Part shown: positions 1 through 51,392 of the stretch, piece after piece
Numbering within the stretch: position 1 is the stretch's first letter
Layout: the number at the start of each line of letters is the position of its first letter
Source of the DNA: Fulvia fulva
Taxonomy: Eukaryota; Ascomycota; Dothideomycetes; Mycosphaerellales; Mycosphaerellaceae
Assembly (NCBI RefSeq): GCF_020509005.1
Contig: NC_063017.1
Coordinates: 3,782,001-3,846,000, forward strand
Length of the DNA: 64,000 nucleotides
Direction of reading: 5' to 3'
Notes under the pieces: generated by a model
Databases searched by the model: none
What the model was told of the DNA's origin: nothing
The model's input: only the letters and a program-made list of their open reading frames with translations
Made by a program: the position numbers and the translations under genes

Positions 1-484
1 ACTTCCTCAGCACAGCGGTAACTTCTCCCTCGGACACCTCCTGTTGGACCGCGATGCTAGGGGCTAGGGGAGTAGAGCTGTTTATGTCGCTTAGATCAGC
101 CTCGACTGGGGGTGGGAAGAACTTGCTAGCCAGTAGACGCGCCTTGGCCTCGGGGTCGCTAACCGGGCCACTAGGCGATTGTAGCGCTGGGATAGAGAAG
201 GAGGGGCCCTGTGTAGGGTCCTGTCGGGCCCATTTCGCTAGCTTCCACATCCTCTCTGGCTTGCCGGCGATTTCTTCCACTGTGGCCCTCCAGCCGACTG
301 CTTTCTCCCTCCGTATTATGGCTTTCTTCTGTTGGCATGCCTCCCTGTATACGTTCCAGGCCTCCTCGCTATGGCTGCTCGTCCACACCCGGCGGGCTCT
401 CCTTGCTTCTCTTACTACCGCAGTGCACTCCGGCGTCCAGTATGGTTTGGACCATGTCGTTGGTTGGCAAGGAAGGAATCGTAT
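1..484 (-). CDS. LINE A ORF2 fragment, region between endonuclease and reverse transcriptase (partial)
   Basis: The - strand is open from 484 down to the left edge, with no stop, in a frame that reads SKPYWTPEC, then EEAWNVYREACQQKKA, then KPERMWKLAKWA. These are typical of the linker upstream of the reverse transcriptase in Tad1-like LINE ORF2 proteins. The frame meets a TAA (plus positions 485-487) just inside module D, so the reading frame has no start of its own here and expression would need one inside the LINE part. The same stretch in A2 and A3 is full of TAG/TAA, so this copy escaped RIP. The 144-residue + strand ORF over the same bases is a shadow. Confidence 0.75.
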   Translation of the reverse strand, partial: MRFLPCQPTTWSKPYWTPECTAVVREARRARRVWTSSHSEEAWNVYREACQQKKAIIRREKAVGWRATVEEIAGKPERMWKLAKWARQDPTQGPSFSIPALQSPSGPVSDPEAKARLLASKFFPPPVEADLSDINSSTPLAPSIAVQQEVSEGEVTAVLRK

Positions 485-938
485 TTAGCAAGCTAGCTAC
501 GAGATAAGGTGACAAGTCTTAACCGCGCTTTCCCACTCATCTAGCACCACCGTGTAGCCTCGTTTCGAGAGGTTAGCCCGGAGCAAAAGCTTCCCTCTAC
601 GCCCTCCCTCCCTGTTTGCTCCTTAAGCCAATATCCACCTCCATAGGCCTGAGCCCTTTAGTGCTCTCTATTGACCGACATGCGCATCCGTCCTCTCGGG
701 CTGTACAGACAGTGTCAGCCGTCGCTGCCAGTGTACACCACGCCCCAGGTTTTGACGCCCTTCGCGTTACCGCAGCCTATCTCTAGAGAGCGGCCGTCCA
801 TGCCTCGCAGGTCTGCTCGGGGCACACACCACGCCGGGCAGCGTACTCCTTGCGTTTCCACCTACTAACCAATATGAAGTTCCTTATCACCCTGCCCTCG
901 ATCCTCCCCGATCACAGAACTAATCCACTTGCATTGTA

Positions 939-994
939 CGTCTTTTCCCCGTCCTAACAGCCGTCTTTTCCTTGCTCAGGCTATCGTCTTTTCC
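939..994. repeat. Three spaced copies of CGTCTTTTCC in module D
   Basis: CGTCTTTTCC occurs at 939, 962 and 985, exactly 23 bp apart each time. The spacers differ. The array is kept in the RIP-mutated D copy at about 24979-25034. Confidence 0.8.
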
Positions 995-1159
995 TCGTCG
1001 CAATCTACCATGTCAGACTAGGTGCGTTGTGTAGCGGGACAGGCAGTGCCTCAGGCAAAACCCTCGTTCCCATACCGGGTGTTCAACAGGCCCTTACAGG
1101 CTTCGTCGCGTGTCCACCTACCCACCGCATTGCCCGCTGGCAAACACCAGATTGTTTCG

Positions 1160-1241
1160 TAGTCCGCTCGACGCCGTTGCATAGTCCGCTCAGTTGTTGT
1201 TCTGTAGTCCGCTCGTCCAATGTTCGTCGCTTAGCCCGCTC
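1160..1241. repeat. Four spaced copies of TAGYCCGCTC in module D
   Basis: TAG(T/C)CCGCTC occurs at 1160, 1182, 1205 and 1232, with 22-27 bp spacing and diverged spacers. The second D copy keeps the array at about 25200-25281. Spacing is irregular and spacers are not unique inserts, so it is not a CRISPR. Confidence 0.8.
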
Positions 1242-1545
1242 GGTTTGCGGTCTCCGGAGGTGAAAATTCTGCACTCATACCAGAGGTGTCCTGTCGAGCG
1301 TATAGGCCACGGTTCCGCGCCCTTCTTACACGTAGAAAGAAGAGGGACTCGCTCCCGACACGAGTACACGCTCGTCGGATGGTTTTCATACCCGTTTTGC
1401 TGGTAGTCCTCTGTTCGCCGCGGCTTCGCCTACGCTACGCGCCCGTCGCGCCCACGACGCTCCAGCGTGAGAATACTTGGCTCTCTCGTAGCTAGACGAG
1501 AGGTTCGTAGCCGACACCACGTACAGGTGATTCTCGTCGTCGACC

Positions 1546-1751
1546 TAGTCTATTTAATACTTTCTTTCTACTTTAACGACTAGCTAGAGGATCTTCCGCC
1601 GTTTATAAGCTTCGTTACGGCGCTTAAATAGTATAGAGACAACTATTAGTATCTATTCGACTATTACGACCCCTTACCTATAGGTATAGTAGACTACTTA
1701 CCGGAATATAAGGAAGAGGATAAGCCCGAGGAACGTAATAAGATATACTAG
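1546..1751 (+). pseudogene. Helitron/PIF1 helicase ORF, leftmost surviving piece (RIP-mutated)
   Basis: Unique sequence between the D-A1 chimera and LINE A2. It ends in the A2 target duplication ATAAGATATACTAG (1738-1751), which recurs at 27422-27435, so it once joined the sequence at 27436. One + frame reads DYLPEYKEEDKPEERNKI, which fits the acidic stretch before the helicase domain of Helitron proteins, but the match is weak by itself. The assignment rests mostly on continuity with the helicase motifs at 41.5-42.2 kb. Confidence 0.5.
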
Positions 1752-20150: not shown

Positions 20151-20166
20151 TAATAGCCGTATATAG

Positions 20167-21963
20167 AAGTCGTAACTACCGAAAGTCCGCCCCCTATATA
20201 GACGTAGTAAGCCTCTAGTATAATGCTATATTCTGTTTAGCTTTCCGTAATATTGCCTATACGTACTTCCTCTACCGTAGCGCCGGGTCTACCTATAGTC
20301 CGAGGATCCTAAGCTAATCTACCGGGTTAGTCGTATACCCCTATATCTAGATAGAAGCTTATATATTATAGAACTGTAGCCGGCGCGTAAAGTGTATTAG
20401 ATTGTACTTTTCTAGGGCAAACCGAGCCCCGTGCCTCCTAGCCTAGTCCTCGTAGATCTTGTACTTCTCTTTTAGTAGCCTATAGTTCTCCTTAGTCGAG
20501 GAAGACTACGCTAGGATGTTCGTGTTATCTACGAAGCCGCTCGTAGCGGTGTTCTAGGATTCTAGGGCTAGGAGTAGCGTCGCTATAAAGAAGAGGAACA
20601 GAATAGGTACTAGCGTTAAGCCTTACGGGATTCTAGTATAGACTACTTAAAATAGGCTTTTATACTAGTCGACTAGAATCGACGTGCTACGGTTTTCGAG
20701 GTAGGACCGTACGAAGTTAATAAGCCACTTAGGGAGTCCTTTCGACCTTAGGATATAGAGTAGCCGCGGGTATAACACGTAGTCGAAGGCTCCCGATATG
20801 TCTAGGCTAAGTAAGGAAGCCACCTTGTCCCTATTCTTATACTAGATAGCCTTTACCTAAGAGGTGATAAGTTCTATCGCGGATAGCGTCGATCGCTATA
20901 GGCGCGTACCTATCTAGGTGTCCGGGAGTAGGGAGTATTCCTCTACCGCCTCGGAGAGTCTTATTATAACTAGCTTCTTAAGCGCCTTCCTAAGAGTATT
21001 AAGGAGCGCAATTAGGCGGTACGACTTTACCTACGTATAGTCTTCCTTTTACGGCTTACGTAGGACTACTATCGTCGATTGTTTAAATGCTATCGGGTAG
21101 TATCCCGTCTATAGGTAGGCGTTAAAGATCGCTACGACTACTAGGGCTAGTTGATCTCTATACTTCTTTAGTAACTCGTTTAGGATCCTATCCGGCCCCG
21201 GGGCTTTCTTCGCTAGTAACTTCCTAAGTATAGCGGTAACTTCTCCCTCGGACACCTCCTATTAGACCGCGATACTAGGGGCTAGGGGAGTAGAGCTATT
21301 TATATCACTTAGATTAGCCTCGACTAGGGGCGGGAAGAACTTACTAGCTAGTAGACGCGCCTTAGCCTTAGGGTCGCTAACCGGGCTACTAGGCGATTAT
21401 AGCGCTAGGATAGAGAAGGAGGGGCCCTATATAGGGTCCTATCGGGCCTATTTTGCTAGCTTCTATATTCTCGCTAGCTTCCCGGCGATTTCTTCTATAA
21501 TACCCCTCTAGCCGACTACTTTCTCCCTCCGTATTATAGCTTCCTTCTATTAGTATACCTCCCTATATACGTTCTAGGCCTCCTCGCTATAGCTACTCGT
21601 CTATACCCGGCGGGCTCTCCTTACTTCTCTTACTACCGTAGTATACTTCGGCGTCTAGTACGGTTTAGACTATATCGTTAGTTAGGTAAGCGGAACGTAA
21701 AGTAAGGTCGCTTTTCTTATTTCGTCTATTAACCCTTAGACTGCCTCGTCTATCTCGTCTTTACTATTTTATTACTGCTACGCGATCTAGACTAGCCTCT
21801 CGGAGTTATCGAGGTACGCCTAGATATTAGCCTAGTAGGCCTTTCCCTAGTTTAGCTTAGGGGTTCTCGCTAGTATACGTTATATCTATGTCGTAATAGA
21901 GGTCCTGACTAGTATATAGTCTAACGACGCCTCGAGTTTATGTTCGATCCTATAGTAGGTTAC
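20167..21963 (-). pseudogene. LINE A2 ORF2 remnant (RT region), strongly RIP-mutated
   Basis: It aligns with A3 at about 47457-49275. The RT motif that reads GFVDDTNILA-like in sense lies near 20515-20540, and the GIPxG...LFLFFIA block lies at about 20583-20640. CpA and TpG are nearly absent here while A3 and A1 keep many of them, which shows graded RIP among copies of one family. Confidence 0.75.
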
Positions 21964-21977
21964 TATATAGTAGTGGC

Positions 21978-23785
21978 CTCACTGGACATATCAGGAGCCT
22001 TTGACAATGTCTCACACTAGAGGCTGATCCACATCCTGAAACAGAAGGCTATCCCTAACTGGACAGTCCAGTTCATCCAGTCGTTCCTCAAAGGCAGAAC
22101 CACAAGACTAAGACTGGGCAGATACAAATCTGATAGCATGCCTACAGAGACAGGAATCCCACAGGGATCAACAATGTCTCCAATCCTGTTTCTCCTCTTT
22201 ATGGCAGACCTGCCAGCAAAGCTAAACTCCAGAAACACATCAGCCTTAGGGTTTGTGGATGACACAAACATCCTAGCCTGGTCAGACAGCATAGAAGAGA
22301 ACTGCAGAATCTTGCAGAAGAAACACAAGGAATGTGAGGAATGGGCCAGAAAACATAGAGCCAGATTTGCCCCAGAGAAGTATCAACTCATCCACTTCAG
22401 TAGAGCCAGAAACAGACACAATATGTAAGCCCTAATCACTATTCAGGGACACACAACAGAACCCTCAAGTGAATTAAGGGTGCTAGGAATATGGATGGAT
22501 CCAAAGCTTAGCTAGGGACCACAGGTCAAGAAAGCACAGGCAAGAGCAGACAATAACAGGCAATCGATTGACAGGCTTACAGCCTCCACATGGGGAGCCA
22601 CATTTGCGAAAGCAAAGGTTATGTACAAGGCCATTGTGAAGCCAGCCATGCTATATGGAGCCCAGATCTGGTCAGCCCAAGACAAGATCCCAAAGAGAAT
22701 TGCAGATCCCATCAGCAGAGCCCAAGCCTCCTGTCTGAAAAAGGTGCTTAGAGCATACAAGTCAACTCTAACAAGGGTGGTCGAAATGGAGTCTGGCTCC
22801 CCACCAGCCAAGCTCTACCTTCAAGGGTTGAGATACTAGTATGCAGGAAAGACGTCTGCATACCCAGCCCAGCTAGTAATCCAGAAGGCAGTCAACAAAA
22901 TCAGGAGCCAGTGCACAAGAAGGCAAAGACAAGCAAGACCCAATCCAGCCCTACAGAAGCAGCAGGACCTGCAGAAGTTCAAAGAGCTAACAGAACAGCT
23001 GCACCTAGCCCAGCAGGAACAGGACAGAAGGGCTCAAGGGAGAGGATCAGCAGCCAGCCAAGGGAAGAAGCAACAGTCTCTAGCTGAAAGGATGGCAGGA
23101 CTCCTCTGGAAGACTGAATAGACAAGAACCCCACAGAGGCCAGGAACCCTAAAGGCACTCCAACAGTTTGGTAGCCACAACTACCTACTGTACTCAGACC
23201 TGACCAGGTCAGAAGCAAGCATAGCAATACAAATCCGCTCTGAACACATCGGAGTCAGGGCATACCTGCATCAGAGAAAAGTCCCAGGTATCGAAGACAA
23301 GAGTTGCCTATGCGGCTACCTGTCCCAGAATGTCGAACATAGACTTCTGGTTTGCAAAGAATGGAGTACAGGGAGAGGTGAATGGAGGGCAAGGGCAAGG
23401 AACAGAAACTTCCAAGCCATGATCAGCAATAAGGGAGACCTCTAGAGAATTACAAGGTGGATCATCCACTAAGGATTTTTGGAGCAGTTCTCTCTTACTA
23501 GGGAAACAGAGAGATGGATTGAGGAGAGAAAGAAGGAGGAGGAGAGCAGGAAGAGGGGGACAACTCCAGGGTTGCAGACAAGGTAGTCAGAGGCTAACCA
23601 CTATGACACTAGTGCACCCTAATGGAAGGAAAACTGAGAACTCATGGCAAGGAAGCTATTAGAGAAGGAGAGGAGGTTTTTACCTAGGAATAGGTTTCCT
23701 ACCTTATGTAGTAACATATATAGACATAAACCCGTATAGGCCGGAGGGCACTATAACGGGTAAATGAATCATCTATCTATCTATC
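21978..23785 (+). mobile_element. LINE C1, 5'-truncated, lightly RIP-mutated, inserted in A2
   Basis: TSD TATATAGTAGTGGC at 21964-21977 and 23786-23799. The tail is (ATCT)n at about 23769-23785. The insertion starts in mid-RT at SLDISGAFDNVSH, so the 5' two thirds are missing. About seven in-frame stops, all explainable by TpG/CpA-to-TpA change, separate it from the intact C3. Confidence 0.92.
21979..23586 (+). pseudogene. LINE C1 RT and C-terminal domain remnant
   Basis: One frame carries all motifs: ETGIPQGSTMSPILF, GFVDDTNILAWSD (catalytic FVDD), PEKYQLIHFSRA, LRVLGIWMDPKLS and the C-terminal CLCGYLSQNVEHRLLVC zinc motif at about 23308-23360. Stops are TAG or TAA at about 22018, 22426, 22512, 22837, 23119, 23443 and 23470. 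The 96-codon ORF at 22138-22428 is a window in this larger dead frame, not a separate gene. Confidence 0.85.
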
Positions 23786-23799
23786 TATATAGTAGTGGC

Positions 23800-24061
23800 T
23801 ATCTAAGATCTAGGAGAGGTCGATCGTGCCTTAGAGTCCCCCTCTCTTCTAGGTGTCTAGGTCCTTCGGGATATTAAGGGCAATTACGTTGCTCGCTATT
23901 AAGTCGAGTACTTCGTCGGCTATAGGGTGCGGCTATATAAGGCTTTCCTAGGAAGGGTAGTATATATTAAAGTCTCCTACTACGATATAGTACCCTTATC
24001 TCTTAAGCGTACTATCTAGGTGTCTATAGACCCTAAGGTCGCGGCTAGACCTCGAGGCTAG
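23800..24061 (-). pseudogene. LINE A2 endonuclease remnant
   Basis: It aligns with A3 at about 49276-49549, where the - strand reads GDFNIYHPS, the AP-endonuclease GDFNxHH motif. In A2 this block lies between the C1 and D-C2 insertions. Confidence 0.65.
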
Positions 24062-24089
24062 CGGTTATATATATATATATATATATATT

Positions 24090-24508
24090 GTTCATTGTGC
24101 TATTATAGAGCCTATTAGCCTATATAGCTATACTACCTACTTCTAGTTATAAAGGGGAAACTCGTATTATAGAGTAAAAACCCCCTCTCCTCTCCTATAC
24201 TTTCTTAACCTTGCCTTCTTTCGTATTTTCCTTATTAAGGGTATACTAGTGTTATAGGCCTGCCCTAATAACTACCCTATCTACACCCCCTTGACCTCCC
24301 GCCTCTTCTCTATCTACTCCTCCGTCTCGCTAGCTAGCGCGAACTATTTAAGAAAGCCCTACTATAGTATCTACTATACTATCTGTTTTACGTCTCGCTT
24401 GTCCGTTACGATTAACTAGTAGTCGCATCTTACTACCTTAGCTCTCTACTAGCTTCGTCCTTCTACCTATTACGGGTATTGTAGTATTATATACTCCGGG
24501 TTCTATAT
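24090..24508 (-). pseudogene. 3' end of a family C LINE in the D-C2 chimera
   Basis: Sense (-) strand reads NPEY...LQYP then a RIP-broken frame, matching the NPEHMLLRCPQW end of the C3 protein, and then the C-type 3' UTR (GGGCAGG, CACTAGTATACC, GGGTTTTTAC). Confidence 0.75.
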
Positions 24509-25585
24509 AAGGAAGGAATCGTATTTAGTAAGCTAGCTACGAGATAAGGTAACAAGTCTTAACCGCGCTTTCCTACTTATCTAGTACTACCGTATAGCCT
24601 CGTTTCGAGAGGTTAGCCCGGAGTAAAAGCTTCCCCCTATACCCTCCCTCCCTGTTTACTCCTTAAGCTAATATCTACCTCTATAGGCCTAAGTCCTTTA
24701 GTACTCTCTATTAACCGATATACGTATCCGTCCTCTCGGGCTATATAGATAGTATTAGCCGTTGCTACTAGTATATACTACGCCCTAGGTTTTAACGCCC
24801 TTCGCGTTACCGTAGCCTATCTCTAGAAAGCGGCCGTCTATACCTCGTAGGTTTACTCGGGGCATACACTACGCCGGGTAGCGTACTCCTTACGTTTCTA
24901 CCTACTAACTAATATAAAGTTCCTTATTACCCTACCCTCGATCCTCCCCGATTATAGGACTAATCTACTTATATTATACGTCTTTTTCCCGTCCTAATAG
25001 CCGTCTTTTCCTTACTTAGGCTATCGTCTTTTCCTCGTCGTAATCTACTATATTAGACTAGGTACGTTATATAGCGGGATAGGTAGTGCCTTAGGTAAAA
25101 CCCTCGTTCCTATACCGGGTATTTAATAGGCCCTTATAGGCTTCGTCGCGTGTCTACCTACCTACCGTATTGCCCGCTAGTAAACACTAGATTGTTTCGT
25201 AGTCCGCTCGACGCCGTCGTATAGTCCGCTAAGTTATTGTTCTATAGTCCGCTCGTCTAATGTTTATCGCTTAGCCCGCTCGGTTTACGGTCTCCGGAGG
25301 TAAAAATTCTATACTTATACTAGAGGTGTCCTATCGAGCGTATAGGCCTCGGTTCCGCGCCCTTCTTATACGTAGAAAGAAGAGGGACTCGCTCCCGATA
25401 CGAGTATACGCTCGTCGGATAGTTTTTATACCCGTTTTGCTAGTAGTCCTCTATTCGCCGCGGCTTCGCCTACGTTACGCGCCCGTCGCGCCTACGACGC
25501 TCTAGCGTAAGAATACTTAGCTCTCTCGTAGTAAGACGAGAGGTTCGTAGCCGATACTACGTATAGGTGATTCTCGTCGTCGACC
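24509..25585 (-). other. Module D, RIP-mutated copy
   Basis: Same 1077-bp length and same ends as 469-1545. Most differences are CA-to-TA or TG-to-TA; CpG-rich blocks such as GCGCCCGTCGCGCC are unchanged. Both short repeat arrays remain. Confidence 0.8.
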
Positions 25586-25599
25586 CGGTTATATATATA

Positions 25600-27421
25600 G
25601 GTTGTATATCTAGGTACTACCTACGTAGAGGGAGGTAATATCGCCCCCGCCTTCTTTATCTACGTAGTACACTACCTCCTAGTCGGATTCTAGTATGTCC
25701 TTACTAATATAGAAGTACGTACGGGGTCTGCCGTCGCCTCGTAGGTATATTGTATAGCCTAGTAACTTATAGGTCGTTAGTCTCTTATAGTACGGGTTAA
25801 TCTATAGCTCCTAGATTACTAGGACGTAGTAGACATACGGGTCCGCCTCGTATAGGAAATGGTTCTAGACTATATCCTTACTATAGTTAACGTTATACTA
25901 GATAATACTAAGCGTATCGAGGCTATTTATCGGTATCGACAATCATTTCCTCTATAATGTCCTATGTCCTACTACCTTATACGTCCTAGTCTACGCCTAT
26001 CGGCTATATACTAAAGGGGAGCCGGGCCTAGTTAGATTCCCTCGCCGTAGCTAGTAGAGCACGTAGCCTCCTATACGCCCTAGGTTACGTATCCTTTATA
26101 TTATTCTTAGCCCTAGGGCGCTTATACCCGACCGCCGCTAACTAGTTCCGCTATAGGCTAGCCTTATAATCGCCGTAGAATCTTAGGGCGACGGTTCTGT
26201 TTATAATTGCCTTGTTTTTCGCTAGTTTCCGCTATAGGCATTCCGCGCTATACGATAGGTAGTACCCCGGATAGTTCGCGTACCGTCTCGTAGCCGATAT
26301 ATAGTCCCTAGATATATAGTCTCCTATATAGTTAGAGTAGGCCTACTTATTTATATATATAGGTTTAGTGTCTATACTATTAGTATTTGAAGCATTAGAG
26401 AATACGAAAGGATAAGGAGTGCTTTTCTACTATCTTAAGGCTATATTGCTAGATTAGGCCTTATTCTATCGCTAGATCCGCCGCTTTCGCGTCTTATAGC
26501 TATACTATTAGCGCCGAGGCCTTCTTACCTTCTAGCCATTTCCTATAGAGCTAAGTCGCCTTCTAGATTAGAGAGTTAAGAGTGACCGGGTTGTCCTCTT
26601 AGAGAGTACGTAGGTGACCTTAGTTAGTTAGGTCGAACTCTTTAGGCATATCGTAGACTAGGATCGTAAATTGCTTCGTTAAGACCTTCGCTAATACCGT
26701 AACCTTAGATACCTACTATAGCTATGCCTCTAGGTGCCTCCTAGTAGTAGTAGAGCTAGTATAGATCTATAGAGTACCGTTAGACTATTAGTTCACTACG
26801 ACCACCCCTAGTTAATTAATTTGTTAGACGAGCTCCTTATTCGATAGCTTCGTAACTTCGGCCTAGTCTTCCTTTACTATAATACGGATCGTAACTATAT
26901 TGTACGTTAGGTGGGGGCCTAGTATTAATACCGCGACCGATACCTAGCTATAGAGGTGTTAATTCCGGGTGGCCTTACTAATCGCCTAAGACGTCGTCCT
27001 TATTTCTTATTGCCCTCGGTAATACGATAGTATAAGCGCCGTACGTAGCTAAGTGATTATTACCTATAGAGAGCGGTATAGGAGCTAATCGTTAGTTTCT
27101 ATACTTTTTACGTCCTCTATAAGTTACTACTAGTTGTCTTAGGGGAGCTTCGCCTATAGAGCCGTAGGCGCCGGTAGTACCGTAGCCTAGACTACTATTA
27201 CCTAGGAGTTGCCTAATGTAGCTAGGCACCTCCGCGGCGTTTAGAGCTAAAGAAATAGAGTAAAGAGAACTTTAAGCTATCTAAATTGAATAAGGTAGAA
27301 CTCCCTTAATTCTAGGGGTAGTGGCCTACTTTATAGATCGTTAGAATAGCCTTAATAAGAGCTTTCGAATATGTCGTATTTAGCGATCCTCCTACTATAA
27401 TACGGATACAATTAAACGTCG
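25600..27421 (-). pseudogene. LINE A2 endonuclease start, ORF1 and 5' end
   Basis: It aligns with A3 at about 49550-51340. On the - strand, ORF1 has a cysteine-rich segment near 26250-26340 and many stops. The A homology stops at about 27373. The extra 27374-27421 includes 31 bp (27389-27419) that match Gypsy G1 RT (45908-45938) at 28 positions on the same strand. Confidence 0.75.
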
Positions 27422-38978: not shown

Positions 38979-40744
38979 TCTATATCTAGCCTCTCACACC
39001 AAAGGCTAATACATATCCTACAGCAGAAAGGCATCCCCCAGTGGGCAACGTCGTTCGTCTTCTCCTTTCTCCAGGAACGGACGACATACCTAGTCCTAGG
39101 AAGGTACACGTCCGACCCGGTGAAGGCAGAGACTGGAATACCTCAGGGATCTACTCTCTCCCCTATCCTGTTTCTAATATTTATGTCGGATCTAATCCCC
39201 CTACTCACCTCTCCGCAAACCTCAGCATCGGGGTTCGTAGACGATACAAACATCCTAGCCTGGTCAGACTCGACAGAAGAGAACTGTCGCCTCCTTGAAG
39301 ATAGGCACAAGAAATGCGAGGAGTGGGCAAAGAAGCATGGTGCCCGGTTCGCCCCTGAAAAGTACCAACTTATACACTTCAGTAAAGCGAGAACACACCA
39401 TAATATGAAGGCGGCGGTAAGAATCCAAGGCTACGAGACCAAGCCATCAGCGGAGCTACGAGTACTAGGGATCTGGCTCGACCCGAAGCTAAGCTGGAAT
39501 GTACAGATTAAGAAAGCCCAGAGTCGAGCGCAAGTCAATGAAGCCTCGATAAAGAGGCTTACGGCATCTACATGGGGAGCAACATTCGACAAGGCAAGAG
39601 TAATGTATAAGGCGATCGTCAGACCAGCTATGTTGTACGGGGCACAGATTTGGGGAACAGGAGGCGCAGGCAAGCCGATCCCGAAACGGATAGAGCAACC
39701 CCTAAACAGGACACAGGCAGGCAACCTACGTAGGGTACTAGGCGCATACAAGACAACGTCAACAAGCACGGTAGAAATGGAGACAGGAATACCACCAATC
39801 GGCCAGTACATCCGGGGAATGAGAATTCAATACGCGGCAAAGACGACAGGTTACCTAGCACAAACCACGATCCAGGAGGCAAAGAATAAGATAGAAAGCC
39901 GCTACCGGAGAGGGGCAGGATATAGGACAAGCCAAAAAGAGGATGACCTTACGACCTTTACGGCCGTACAGACAAGCACCGAATGGCTAGCACGAAAGGA
40001 GGAGGAGCGTAGGACTCGCCAGGCCGGCGGGAGCAAGGCTAAGACCCAAAACCTAGCGGAACAGATAGCGAGCTGCCTATGGGAGCAGGACTGGAAAAGG
40101 AAGCCCCCTAAGACAACAGGCCCGATAGCGCTCCGAGCCTTCCAGAGACACAATTACCAGCTATATAGGGACCTGACAAGGGCCGAAGCAAGCATAGCGA
40201 TCCAAATCAGGTCCGAACACATTGGATTAAGGGCCTACCTGTTCAGAAGACGCGCACTAGACATCTATAGCCCAGCCTGCCAGTGTGGCTACCCATCGCA
40301 AAACCCAGAACATATGCTACTACGATGCCCGCAGTGGGCGAGAGGCAGGGGAAATTGGAGGCACCAAGCGGGAAGGAGAGACTACAAGTCAATTATTAGG
40401 GACAAAGGCAACATTCGCCGAATCTCTCGGTGGATACTACAGCAGGGATACCTCCAGCAGTTTAGCCTCGCGAGCGAGACGGAGGAGTGGATAGACAAGA
40501 GGCGGAAGCGAGGGGGGTTGCAGATAGGGTAGTCATCAGGGCAGGCCCATGACACTAGCGTACCCCTAACAAGGGAAATTTAAGACGACAACGAGGAGGA
40601 AAAGACAGGCGGGAAGGAGGAGGGGTTTTCACCAACACGGTTTCCCCTCTATATATACAAAAACAAGATAGCATAGCTGCATAGGCCAAAGGGCACTACA
40701 ACAGCTTAATGAAATATCTATCTATCTATCTATATCTAGCCTCT
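38979..40744 (+). mobile_element. LINE C3, 5'-truncated, unmutated young copy
   Basis: The span includes both copies of the 16-bp TSD TCTATATCTAGCCTCT (38979-38994 and 40729-40744). The element proper is about 38995-40728 with an (ATCT)n tail. It has normal CpA content and one uninterrupted reading frame, in contrast to the RIP-mutated B4 sequence around it. Truncation is in mid-RT, as usual for incomplete target-primed reverse transcription. Confidence 0.95.
38994..40532 (+). CDS. LINE C3 ORF2 C-terminal part (RT palm to zinc motif), about 512 aa, no start
   Basis: The frame is open from the very start of the insertion (SHQRLIHIL) to the TAG at 40530-40532. It has ETGIPQGSTLSPILF, GFVDDTNILAWSD (catalytic FVDD), APEKYQLIHFSKA, LGIWLDPKLSW, an AMLYGAQIW thumb block, and CQCGYPSQNPEHMLLRC near residue 430. 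The GTG at 39120 is not a real start. Missing are ORF1, the endonuclease and the RT fingers, so it cannot move by itself, but it shows what the C family protein looks like without RIP. Confidence 0.93.
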   Translation, partial: SHQRLIHILQQKGIPQWATSFVFSFLQERTTYLVLGRYTSDPVKAETGIPQGSTLSPILFLIFMSDLIPLLTSPQTSASGFVDDTNILAWSDSTEENCRLLEDRHKKCEEWAKKHGARFAPEKYQLIHFSKARTHHNMKAAVRIQGYETKPSAELRVLGIWLDPKLSWNVQIKKAQSRAQVNEASIKRLTASTWGATFDKARVMYKAIVRPAMLYGAQIWGTGGAGKPIPKRIEQPLNRTQAGNLRRVLGAYKTTSTSTVEMETGIPPIGQYIRGMRIQYAAKTTGYLAQTTIQEAKNKIESRYRRGAGYRTSQKEDDLTTFTAVQTSTEWLARKEEERRTRQAGGSKAKTQNLAEQIASCLWEQDWKRKPPKTTGPIALRAFQRHNYQLYRDLTRAEASIAIQIRSEHIGLRAYLFRRRALDIYSPACQCGYPSQNPEHMLLRCPQWARGRGNWRHQAGRRDYKSIIRDKGNIRRISRWILQQGYLQQFSLASETEEWIDKRRKRGGLQIG

Positions 40745-46390: not shown

Positions 46391-46402
46391 TAGCTAATAT
46401 AG

Positions 46403-49400
46403 ATAGATAGATTTGTCATTTCCCTGTTCTAGGACCCTATCCGGCCTATATAGGTATATATCTATTGTTATGTACAAAGGGAAACCCGAATAGGTGAAAA
46501 CCCTTCCCGCCCCCGACTACTCCTTGTCTAGTTTAGCTTTCCCTCTAAACGTACGTAGTCTATGTCACTACCCCGTTAGCCCCCGCTCCTAGCCGGTCTC
46601 GTCGCGCTACGTCGTGTCCTCTCTTCCTATACTATTCCTACTAGGCGGTACTGTTCTAGCCAGCCCTTTTCTAGTATCTAGTTCGTAATACGCCGTAGGT
46701 CCTTAGCGTTGTTAAGAAGTGCCCTAATCGTCCGGTTCCTCGCCTTTGCTATCTACTCCCCCCTTCCTAGCGACCACCTCGGATAGACGAGGAGTGCGTG
46801 CCGTACGTTCTAGGAGCGATAGCCGTAGAGGCAGCTAGTATTCGTGTATCCTAGAACCTTCCTCTATAATAGGTACCCCTAGAGGCCGATGTGTTCGCTT
46901 CGTAGTTAGGTTACTATACTACTCTATACCCTCGTAAGGCGGTAGTAGATAAGCTTCGGGGGGTGCTTGACCGCGGATTTTGTAGCTAACTATTCCTTAG
47001 GTTATCCCGCTAGCTAAGGGCGTCTACTATGCCCTACAACCTAGTTGTTCTACCTCTCTTTCTATAGTTGCTCTACAAACGATTTCTTACCTTCCTATTA
47101 TGTTGCTAGCTATTCGTCCCTTACCCGGTAGTTCGGCTCGTTTCCGGGTCGAATGCCCCTATACGCTTATACTGATTCGCGGGCCCTTACGACTGTACTA
47201 GCGATGACCTTCTATACTAGGTACTATGCCGACTTACCTAAGTAGGAGGTCCGTAGTCCCTAGATGTATAGGTCGATCGGCGGTATAGCGGTCTCGTACT
47301 TAAGTATCCTCGTTAGTATCGACTTATATACCCCGGTAACCTTCCTTAGGCATTAGTTTTAGATCTTCGCTAGCGGCGCGACGAGTCCCTTCGATAGGTA
47401 GGCCCTCTCGCCTAAAGACTACACTTAGCTACTATAGGTAAGGACTAGCCGTATAATAGCCGTATATAGAAGTCGTAACTGCCGGAAGTCCGCCCCCTAT
47501 ATAGACGTAGTAAGCCTCTAGCATAATGCTATATTCTGTTCAGCTTTCCGTAATATTGCCTATACGTGCTTCCTCTACCGTAGCGCCGGGTCTACCTATA
47601 GTCCGAGGATCCTAAGCTGATTTGCCGGGTTAGTCGTATGCCCCTATATCTAGATAGAAGCTTGTATATTATAGAACCGTGGCCGGCGCGTAAAGTGTAT
47701 TAGATTGTACTTTTCTAGGGCAAACCGAGCCCCGTACCTCCTAGCCTAGTCCTCGTAGATCTTGTGCTTCTCTTCTAGTAGCCTATAGTTCTCCTTAGTC
47801 GAGGAAGACTACGCTAGGATGTTTATATCGTCTACGAAGCCGCTCGTAGCGGTATTCTGGGATTCTAGGGCTAGGAGTAGCGTCGCTATAAAGAAGAGGA
47901 ACAGAATAGGTACTAGCGTTAAGCCTTACGGGATTCTAGTATAGACTGCTTAAAATAGGCTTCTATACTAGCCGACTAGGATCGACGTACTACGGTTTTG
48001 GAGGTAGGACCGTACGAAGTTAATAAGCCACTTAGGGAGTCCTTTCGACCTTAGGATATAGAGTAGCCGCGGGTATAACACGTAGTCGAAGGCTCCCGAT
48101 ATGTCTAGGCTAAGTAAGGAAGCCACCTTGTCCCTATTCTTATACTAGATAGCCTTTACCTAAGAGGTAATAAGTTCTATCGCGGATAGCGTCGATCGCT
48201 ATAGGCGCGTACCTATCTAGGTGTCCGGGAGTAGGGAGTGTTCCTCTGCCGCCTCGGAGAGTCTCGTTATAACCAGCTTCTTAAGCGCCTTCCTAAGAGT
48301 GTTAAGGAGCGTAATTAGGCGGTACGACTTTACCTACGTATAGTCTTCCTTCTACGGCTTACGTAGGACTACTGTCGTCGATTGTTTAAAAGCTATCGGG
48401 TGGTACCCGGTCTATAGGCAGGCGTTAAAGATCGCTATAACTACTAGGGCTAGTTGATCTCTACACTTCTTTAGTAGCTCGTTTAGGATCCTATCCGGCC
48501 CCGGGGCTTTCTTCGCCGGCAACTTCCTTAGTATAGCGGCAACTTCTCCCTCGGACACCTCCTATTAGACCGCGATGCTAGGGGCTAGGGGAGTAGAGCT
48601 GTTTATGTCGCTTAGATCAGCCTCGACTAGGGGCGGGAAGAACTTGCTAGCTAGTAGACGCGCCTTGGCCTCGGGGTCGCTAACCGGGCCACTAGGCGAT
48701 TATAGCGCTAGGATAGAGAAGGAGGGGCCCTATATAGGGTCCTGTCGGGCCCATTTCGCTAGCTTCTATATCCTCTCTAGCTTGCCGGCGATTTCTTCTA
48801 CTATAGCCCTCTAGCCGACTACTTTCTCCCTTCGTATTATAGCTTTCTTCTGTTAGTATACTTCCCTATATACGTTCTAGGCCTCCTCGCTATAGCTGCT
48901 CGTCTATACCCGGCGGGCTTTCCTTGCTTCTCTTACTACCGTAGTACACTCCGGCGTCTAGTATAGTTTAGACCATGTCGTTAGTTAGGCAAGCGGAACG
49001 TGAAGTAAGGTCGCTTTTCTTATTTCGTCTATTAACCCCTAGACTGCTTCGTCTATCTCGTCTTTACTATTGTATTACTACTACGCGATCTAGACTAGCC
49101 TCTTAGAGTTATCGAGGTACGCCTAGATGTTAGCCTAGTAGGCCTTTCCCTAGTTTGGCTTAGGGGTTCCCGCTAGTGTACGTTATATCTATGTCGTAAT
49201 AGAGGTCCTAACTAGTATATAGTCTGACGACGCCTCGAGTTTATGTTCGATCCTATAGTAGGTTACCGTATAGTAGTAGCTATCTAAGATCTAGGAGAGG
49301 TCGATCGTGCCTTAGAGTCCCCCTCTCTTCTAGGTGCCTAGGTCCTTCGGGGTATTAAGGGCAATTACGTTGCTCGCCATTAAGTCGAGTACTTCGTCGG

Positions 49401-51392
49401 CTATAGGGTACGGCTATATAAGGCTTTCCTAGGAAGGGTGGTATATGTTAAAGTCTCCTACTACGATGTGGCACCCTTGTCTCTTAAGCGCACTATCTAG
49501 GTGTCTATAGACCCCTAGGTCGCGGCTAGACCTCGAGGCTAGCGGTTATATATATAGGTTATGTATCTAGGTGCTACCTACGTAGAGGGAGGTAATATTG
49601 CCCCCGCCTTCTTCGTCTACGTAGTACACTACCTCCTAGTCGGATTCTAGTATGTCCTTACTAATATAGAAGTACGTACGGGGTCTACCGTCGCCTCGTA
49701 GGCATATCGTGTAGCCTAGTGACTTGTAGGTTATTAGTCTCTTATAGTACGGGTTAATCTATAGCTCCTAGATTATAAGGACGTAGTGGACGCGCGGGTC
49801 CGCCTCGTGTAGGAAATGGTTCTGGACTATATCCTTGCTATAGTTGACGTTATACTAGATGATGCTAAGCGTGTCGAGGCTAGTCATCGGCATCGACAAT
49901 CATTTCCTCTATATCGTCCTATGTCCTACTGCCCTGTACGTCCTGGTCTACGCCTATCGGCTATGTACTAAAGGGGAGCCGGGCCTAGTTAGATTCCCTC
50001 GCCGTAGCTAGCAGAGTACGTGGCCTCCCGTACGCCCTAGGTTGCGCATCCTTTATATCGTTCTCGGCCCTAGGGCGCTTGTGCCCGACCGCCGCTAGTT
50101 AGTTCCGGTATAGGCTAGCCTTACGGTCGCCGTAGAATCTTAGGGCGACGGTTCTGTTTGTGATTGCCTTGTTTTTCGCTAGTTTCCGCTATAGGCATTC
50201 CGTACTATACGATAGGTAGTGCCCCGGACAGTTCGCGTACCGTCTCGTAGTCGATATATAGTCCCTAGATATATAGTCTCCTATACAGTTCGAGCAGGCC
50301 TACTTATTTATACACGTGTAGGTTTAGTGTCTATACTGTTAGCATTTAAAGCATTAGAGGACACGAAAGGATAAGGAGTGCTTTTCTACTATCTTGAGGC
50401 TATATTGCTAGACTAGGCCTTGTTCTATCGCTAGATCCGCCGCTTTCGCGTCTTATAGCTATACTATTAGCGCCGAGGCCTTCTTGCCTTCTAGCCATTT
50501 CCTATAGAGCCAAGTCGCCTTCTAGATTAGAGAGTTAAGAGTGACCGGGTTGTCCTCTTAGAGAGCGCGTAGGTGACCCTAGTTAGTTAGGTCAAACTCC
50601 TTAGGTATATCGTGGACTAGGATTGTAAATTGTTTCGTTAAGACCTTCGCTAATGCCGTAACCTTAGATGCCTACTATAGCTATACCTCTAGGTGCCTCC
50701 TAGTAGTAGCAGAGCTAGTATAGATCTATAGAGTGCCGTTAGACTATTAGTTCACTACGACTACCCCTAGTTAGTTAATTCGTTAGGCGAGCTCCTTGTT
50801 CGATAGCTTCGTAACTTCGGCCTAGTCTTCCTTTACTACAATACGGATCGTAACTATATCGTACGTTAGGCGGGGGCCTAGTATCGATGCCGCGACCGAT
50901 GCCTAGCTATAGGGGTGTTGATTCCGGGTGGCCTTACTAATCACCTAGGACGTCGTCCTTATTTCTTGTTGCCCTCGGTAATACGATAGTACAAGCGCCG
51001 TACGTAGCTAAGTGATCATTACCTATAGAGACCGGTAAGGGAGCTAATCGTTAGTTTCTATACTTTTTACGTCCTCTATAAGTTACTACTAGTTGTCTTA
51101 GGGGGGCTTCGCCTATAGGGCCGTAGGCGCCGTTAGTGCCGTAGCCTAGGCTACTATTACCTAGGAGTTGCCTAATGTAGCTAGGCACCTCCGCGGCGTT
51201 TAGAGCTGAAGAAACAGGGTGAAGAGAGCTTTAAGCTGTCTAGATTAAATAAGGTAGAACTCCCTTAGTCCTAGGGGCAGTGGCCTGCTTTGTATATCGT
51301 TAGAATGGCCTTGATAAGAGCTTTCGAATGTGTCTTGTTTTGGCGTAGAGATCGATAAGCCGACCCGTAACTATATAAGTATTAGGCCTATC
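46403..51392 (-). mobile_element. LINE A3 (Tad1-like), full-length type, moderately RIP-mutated
   Basis: TSD TAGCTAATATAG (46391-46402 and 51393-51404). The tail lies at 46403-46411. About 5.0 kb uninterrupted, the best family A reference here. On the - strand: ORF1 (about 51340-49970) with a cysteine segment near 50290-50210; endonuclease (GDFNIYHPS near 49460-49431); linker (48975-48520, matching D-A1); RT with GFVDDINILA near 47839-47816 and the GIP.GLTLVPILFLFF block near 47940-47880. The 5' end (51341-51392) differs from that of A2. Confidence 0.88.

Follow-up and report, generated by a model that had tools for sequence, protein, structure and literature searches.

Introduction

The closest described counterparts of the element studied here are the MINE elements of Magnaporthe grisea/oryzae, which causes rice blast. 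According to the sections of PMC2104539 on their structure, a full-length non-coding 5′ module of 1,113 nt, WEIRD, precedes in them a variably truncated long interspersed nuclear element (LINE) in the same sense, with flanking duplications and recurrent break sites; a tripartite unit is reported there, and no solo module was found. The same sections describe WEIRD as a functional housekeeping non-coding RNA, "not a transposable element". Here, we analyzed a stretch of 64,000 nt of Fulvia fulva DNA (contig NC_063017.1, positions 3,782,001 to 3,846,000 of the forward strand; hereafter, the window), in which a non-coding module of similar size, about 1.1 kb, occurs twice at the 5′ side of LINE sequence. 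Magnaporthe belongs to a different fungal class from this host. We followed the module, named D, through the whole assembly (67,169,167 bp, 14 contigs). It resembles the MINE elements of rice blast on a much larger scale, with hundreds of places and several LINEs, and D itself looks like the amplified unit.

Chimeras of LINE-1 in mammals, including U6/LINE-1, also begin with a non-LINE RNA that is joined to a truncated LINE, and target duplications often flank them; template switching or RNA ligation is proposed for them in the parts of PMC13174262 that deal with their origin. In the fungus, in contrast, the joined RNA is a single anonymous module, present in hundreds of places and with lineages of its own. 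Short interspersed nuclear elements (SINEs), such as Mg-SINE, are non-autonomous and moved by LINE machinery, as D appears to be. However, Mg-SINE has an MGL-like 3′ end for priming, as stated where it is described in PMC2104539 (MGL being the LINE partner of WEIRD), whereas D enters at the 5′ side: it ends with CTTCCTTG, directly followed by LINE sequence, and has no LINE tail of its own at which it could be primed. In our literature searches Magnaporthe was the sole fungal case recognizable by title or abstract, which is a weak result, as most subscription papers were outside their scope. The accessible text of PMC10823647 does not use the terms "chimeric", "template switch", "non-autonomous" or "SINE", and that of PMC9453070 names Tad1 as the LINE family of the matching assembly.

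Module D Has Fixed Ends and Occurs in Hundreds of Copies

A first-pass annotation of the window had placed two copies of D, each of 1,077 nt and with equal ends, at positions 469–1545 and 24509–25585, one of them mutated by repeat-induced point mutation (RIP) and the other not. Both copies and this difference between them were confirmed in the sequence, but the boundary proved to be one base short, as the terminal G (window 468, minus strand) had been missed. The base next to the intact 20-nt 3′ end of D is G or A (A as RIP would give) in 546 of 546 copies, whereas the LINEs have C or T there at all 64 distinct break sites; therefore, D comprises positions 468–1545, i.e., 1,078 nt. Read on the minus strand, it starts with GGTCGACGACG at 1545 and runs to CTTCCTT and its own final G at 468. 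The first copy (469–1545) differs by one base from the majority of 30 young D copies. The second, which with its terminal G (read as A) occupies 24508–25585 of the minus strand, differs from this majority by 116 bases over 24509–25585. As 110 of these changes are C>T or G>A, 100 of them in CA/TG context, we call this copy RIP-mutated.

That D is non-coding was borne out by its longest internal open reading frame (ORF) on the minus strand, which has only 63 aa (in a list of ORFs of at least 40 aa). The possibility that D belongs to a known RNA family was rejected, as Rfam 15 covariance models gave on window positions 300–1700 a single match at E up to 10 (E = 2.9; 12.4 bits, where the gathering score is 40). 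That D might be an unusually structured or viroid-like RNA was rejected as well (folding z = +1.7 for the sense and +1.7 for the antisense strand versus 60 shuffles each), and the D 3′ end had no match among IMG/VR viral contigs, which is a weak test. Short repeats occur inside the D consensus: GAGCGGRCTA at nt 305, 332, 355 and 377 (region 305–386), and GGAAAAGACG at nt 552, 575 and 598, with a spacing of 23 (region 552–607).

In the assembly, the exact 20-nt 3′ end of D was found 546 times and the reversed control pattern not once, so chance is excluded; the D 5′ end, in a RIP-tolerant pattern, was found 437 times. Thus, the two copies recognized initially are real, but the scale is far larger, also when compared with the 31 MINEs reported for Magnaporthe in the relevant section of PMC2104539. 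A similarity search with D, in which 40 of 656 first-look candidates were scored, returned 40 full-length copies at ~100% identity and one partial copy. Instead of many different 3′ ends, the 546 counted ends represent one and the same end (exceptions on contig C1 are given below), and copies with an altered 3′ end escape this count. For a closer census we took the first 100 listed D 3′ ends on contig C1, with no random draw. A 5′ end lies exactly 1,077 bp away from 64 of them and at 1,054–1,079 bp from nine more, and two are paired with 5′ ends at 1,525 and 1,785 bp. The terminal G is retained in 48 C1 copies. In 42 of these, a 5′ end lies at 1,054–1,079 bp; five have no 5′ end, and the remaining copy forms the inner D of a D-D unit.

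D Is Joined to at Least Five LINE Families and Inserted Together with Them

Wherever the flank was identified, it is a truncated LINE with D on its 5′ side and in the same orientation. Its partners come from at least five LINE families, compared with MGL (and Mg-SINE) named for WEIRD in PMC2104539, at least in its sections on MINE. Of the 100 C1 junctions, 86 were firmly assigned: 41 to LINE family B, 24 to A, 12 to E, seven to C, and one each to families H and D. The reverse transcriptase (RT) domain (PF00078, RVT_1) is present in partner families A, B and C, and family H was identified as a LINE by tblastn against the proteins of these three. Family H (L187 and L188; G000:C2 and C7) is RIP-mutated, has an RT region ~34–53% identical to those of A–C, and also bears D.

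RIP-tolerant LINE 3′ ends number 1,154 for family A and 562 for family B genome-wide. Among the first 100 listed family B ends on C1, 33 are preceded on their own strand by a D 3′ end no more than 6.5 kb away, versus a mean of 2.8 and a maximum of 9 in 200 trials with randomly shifted D, indicating that the joining of D is a common outcome of LINE B insertion. Moreover, 24 of the 26 units tested carry perfect target duplications of 11–16 nt that directly abut the first base of D: 18 of the 20 for which the LINE end was fetched separately, five with ends inside the locus, and the second window copy. The two units without a duplication are L006 and L008; a 9-nt match at L008 was discarded, since its LINE end, fetched later, showed no duplication there. 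By our own count, TATATA is contained in 18 of the 24 duplications. The duplications follow (ATCT)n-type tails or, in the second window copy, a TA run, and the units therefore entered by LINE-type integration.

Taken with the constant, complete module, the variable LINE 3′ parts and the uniform orientation, these duplications support the initial view of D as part of a MINE/WEIRD-like composite, fused to different LINE 3′ ends. D-D-LINE units, which recall the tripartite unit of Magnaporthe, were also seen. In L014, D is joined to a D without its first 164 bases, which is joined to LINE B, and the whole has one target duplication of its own. A D-D-LINE A unit lies on C1 at 4549237-4551021 (L051 and L111), and its inner D is the place with the 1,785-bp distance. 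Keeping of a reading frame at the join was considered and rejected, as the longest open LINE frame was 0, 1 and 2 in nine, 11 and four of 24 junctions, respectively.

D works like MINE, but homology between D and WEIRD was not shown in a comparison by oligos: three 20-nt WEIRD/MINE oligos taken from PMC3978060 matched D no better than shuffles.

LINEs Are Broken at a Strict Motif

We read 140 junctions, seven of which were chosen because they were exceptional. A read-through copy of the LINE was available for 125 (two duplicates among them), and the other 15 were left out of the motif count; 64 distinct break sites were obtained by merging 74 by hand. Opposite the final G of D, every one of the 64 sites has a pyrimidine in the LINE; a purine precedes this pyrimidine at 61 of 64 (RY), and the first LINE base that is kept is C at 52 sites, T at seven, A at four and G at one. 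The break motif of the LINE is thus R-Y|C-C, and it is strict: in the LINE background (40,511 positions from 29 loci), RY accounts for 23% and RYCC for 2%. RIP cannot create a pyrimidine from a purine, because it changes only C to T and G to A. Across the assembly, the 20-nt D end is followed by a pyrimidine in none of the 546 copies and by two purines in seven, hence by purine and pyrimidine in 539. All seven exceptions to RY proved to be D chimeras. One of them, L057 (C6), was considered as a solo D and rejected, since its 7-kb context revealed a join of D to LINE A, close to the 5′ end of the latter.

Microhomology between D and the LINE at the join was rejected too: at five sites, A or G stands directly after the final G/A, with no C between. 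As no C is left at these sites, the usual Cs at the join come from the LINE. Homology to the LINE or repeat usually starts directly after the G of D, with no extra bases. In MINE, the last lost LINE base is likewise a pyrimidine in 18 of 18 rows of Table 3 of PMC2104539 (repeated sites included). However, the motif given there is GCC|A/U, and only the pyrimidine just before the break is common to both.

Breaks are concentrated in hot spots that precede, by a few bases, the Asp codon in the RT motif LDI-GAFD, with eight junctions in family A, 12 in B and five in C, and also in L078. We take this motif to be RT motif A. The D-less family C copy in the window is truncated at most one base from the hot spot, and the D-less family B copy is truncated elsewhere. 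Of the 15 junctions without a read-through copy, L087 and L105 were later placed in LINE family H (L087 by its fixed distance to L105-type sequence), the flank of L077 is a repeat of at least 40 places, and the flanks of L080, L095, L101, L116, L117, L120 and L132 have weak LINE-like similarity or none.

D Lineages Are Independent of Junctions in the Copies Tested

The part that is amplified was sought in the 40 highest-scoring D copies, a choice by score that favors full length. These copies differ from the D majority by 0–4 bases and represent 30 junctions. The consensus haplotype is present in 12 copies at 10 junctions, haplotype 569A/733A/895T in six copies at six junctions (the partners include LINEs A and B), 518G alone in four copies at four junctions, and 213G, 363C and 314G/733A/895T in two copies each, at two junctions each. 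Conversely, the junction GCCAGAGACTT occurs in four copies with four D haplotypes. Pairs of copies with the same junction (n = 19) have 2.26 D differences versus 2.41 in random pairs (permutation P = 0.39; L014 was counted by its outer join only), and D is identical in three of these pairs (P = 0.35).

D lineage and LINE break are thus independent in this sample, as would be expected if D was joined to a LINE anew at most insertions. Since the shared haplotypes branch, several D sources seem to have been active, so that several D-bearing loci would be transcribed and feed a common pool, and D would be a non-autonomous retroelement in its behavior. Several lineages of the module are a further difference from MINE. 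The fusions had been assigned initially to two times; from the 64 distinct break sites, there were dozens at least.

How D May Spread, and the Alternatives

We consider it very probable that D, a non-coding RNA of ~1.08 kb whose ends are fixed, spreads via LINE retrotransposition, by the joining of its 3′ G at R-Y|C-C. The DNA itself shows that D has fixed ends, that its partners are LINEs in a uniform orientation, that the units carry target duplications and the junctions a motif, and that lineage is independent of junction in the 40 copies tested. In the mechanism that we propose, transcripts of several D-bearing loci would supply a free D RNA, GGUCGACGACG...CUUCCUUG, of ~1,078 nt with the 3′ end ...CCUUCCUUG. 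Its terminal G would be joined to the 5′ end of a LINE transcript broken or paused at R-Y|C-C; the LINE machinery would prime at the LINE 3′ end, copy the LINE remnant and then D, and the D-LINE pair would be inserted mostly at TATATA-containing targets with a duplication of 11–16 nt. We lean slightly towards a further step, namely that D is a self-perpetuating selfish RNA, whose own copies make RNAs with a fixed 3′ end that are attached 5′ to any LINE transcript cut at R-Y|C-C. If so, D would need neither a LINE-like tail nor a fixed partner and would represent a kind of retroelement not usually recognized, and WEIRD would be a second, possibly unrelated, example of it and not a housekeeping RNA.

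Several points weigh against the spread of a complete free D RNA by joining anew. On C1, 25 of the 100 D 3′ ends have no detectable 5′ end (the terminal G is changed to A, as RIP would do, in 20 of them and unchanged in five), 14 of the 100 flanks are weak or without firm LINE assignment, and for 10 of 83 D 5′ ends the exact 3′ end is missing at the expected distance, so some D copies may be 3′-altered. L035 and L037 share 710A/914G at one junction, and such reuse of a junction may reflect transposition of the fused unit as such. With 40 copies and 19 same-junction pairs, the test may also leave room for a minority of unit transpositions, gene conversion between D copies could be another route by which variants spread, and the free D RNA is itself something that we infer from genomic sequence.

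As to how the join is made, the constant ends of D had been ascribed to a free RNA that is copied after template switching. The fixed ends held, but RNA ligation before reverse transcription fits them equally well. For template jumping, in which the RT would leave the LINE RNA and continue on D RNA from its 3′ end, we see an even chance; the pertinent section of PMC2104539 proposes it for WEIRD-MGL. The hot spots before the Asp codon, shared by families A, B and C and by a further line, are what a pause site or structure would give, and the truncation point of the D-less C copy of the window is at most one base away from the D-C hot spot; however, an invariant pyrimidine at the break across LINE families with different RTs is not obvious for pausing. 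This lost pyrimidine, found at every distinct site in several LINE families and in D itself, speaks for RNA cutting, and ligation, which is possible although we would not assume it, would proceed from a LINE RNA cut 3′ of the pyrimidine, to which a tRNA-ligase-type enzyme would attach D, presumably bearing a 3′ cyclic phosphate, before target-primed reverse transcription. It would fit with joins that usually have no extra bases and with the little truncation over 1.1 kb (42 of 48 C1 copies keeping the terminal G have the 5′ end), and it is named beside template switching for LINE-1 chimeras in the parts of PMC13174262 cited above. Nevertheless, the 5′ joins to target DNA also lack extra bases (18 of 18 duplications), and precise RT alone could suffice.

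The remaining alternatives concern the nature of D. An origin in a few fusion events, followed by amplification of the chimeras as fixed composites, would account for junctions that recur (one five times and another four times among 40 copies), for the two D variants and the junction shared by L035 and L037, and for three equal C1 junctions ~4.67 kb apart, which are likely a tandem duplication. Yet the four haplotypes in the four copies of junction GCCAGAG, the presence of one haplotype on many junctions and the permutation result make this origin very unlikely. Unlikely, too, is a single housekeeping non-coding RNA gene with a transcript that was picked up at random, which was the suggestion made for WEIRD in 2007. 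D has the fixed ends and the lack of a long ORF expected of such a gene, and a stand-alone copy may sit among the uninspected ones. However, at least six haplotypes, each in two or more insertions and branching, need several sources, D is no more stably folded than shuffles, and no stand-alone D was recognized at 138 distinct junctions of the 546, where some flanks are only weakly LINE-like. Finally, D sits at the 5′ end of LINE sequence, as the 5′ untranslated region of one full-length LINE family would, but its five families and 64 break sites, and a window with just two D copies and several other LINE copies, render this explanation extremely improbable.

The reading of D as an amplified unit, to which its hundreds of copies, partners and lineages point, reaches further than the housekeeping role given to WEIRD in 2007 in the text of PMC2104539 quoted above, and these copies, with several partners and partner-switching lineages, allow the "not a transposable element" view to be tested. 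Likewise, the strict break motif offers a handle on the formation of LINE chimeras, for which PMC13174262, where it discusses LINE-1, gives a template jump and RNA ligation as two possibilities.

Surroundings of the Two Window Copies and Further D Loci

The partner of the first D copy is a 5′-truncated LINE of family A (1..467, minus strand), which here lies upstream of the RT domain and continues beyond the window; the junction reads D-G|CCAACCAACG. The target duplication on the 5′ side, TATTAAATAGACTA, is at 1546..1559 (minus strand), and its duplicate follows the (ATCT)n tail about 2.6 kb away, beyond the window (tail and second TATTAAATAGACTA within G000:C6:3779700-3779960). The second D copy is joined to the last ~430 nt of a LINE of family E (24076..24507, minus strand), which is the family called C at this copy in the first-pass annotation and which ends in a TA-rich tail. 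With the 14-nt duplication TATATATATAACCG at 25586..25599 (minus strand) and the TA run, the earlier proposal that this copy was inserted as a unit, with a LINE-style duplication and tail, holds. The unit is hosted by an older LINE A copy (27381-25586 and 24066-23792).

Three LINE copies without D served as references: a family A copy for read-through (46397..51341, minus strand), a 5′-truncated family B copy (38992..40735, plus strand), and the 5′-truncated family C copy (21978..23791, plus strand) that starts at most one base from the D-C hot spot (CTCACTGG). In the nested stack at window 20151-27381, the D-LINE E unit and the D-less LINE C copy are both inside one LINE A copy.

Elsewhere in the assembly, three D units with the equal junction GCTTAGACCC (L142-L144) lie ~4.67 kb apart on one strand at G000:C1:8826064-8835421, which suggests tandem duplication. 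In L066 (G000:C14:1-3600), a D 3′ end at 2862, with no recognizable 5′ end, is joined to LINE B-type sequence, and this copy is located in the terminal 3 kb of contig C14 (460,486 bp).
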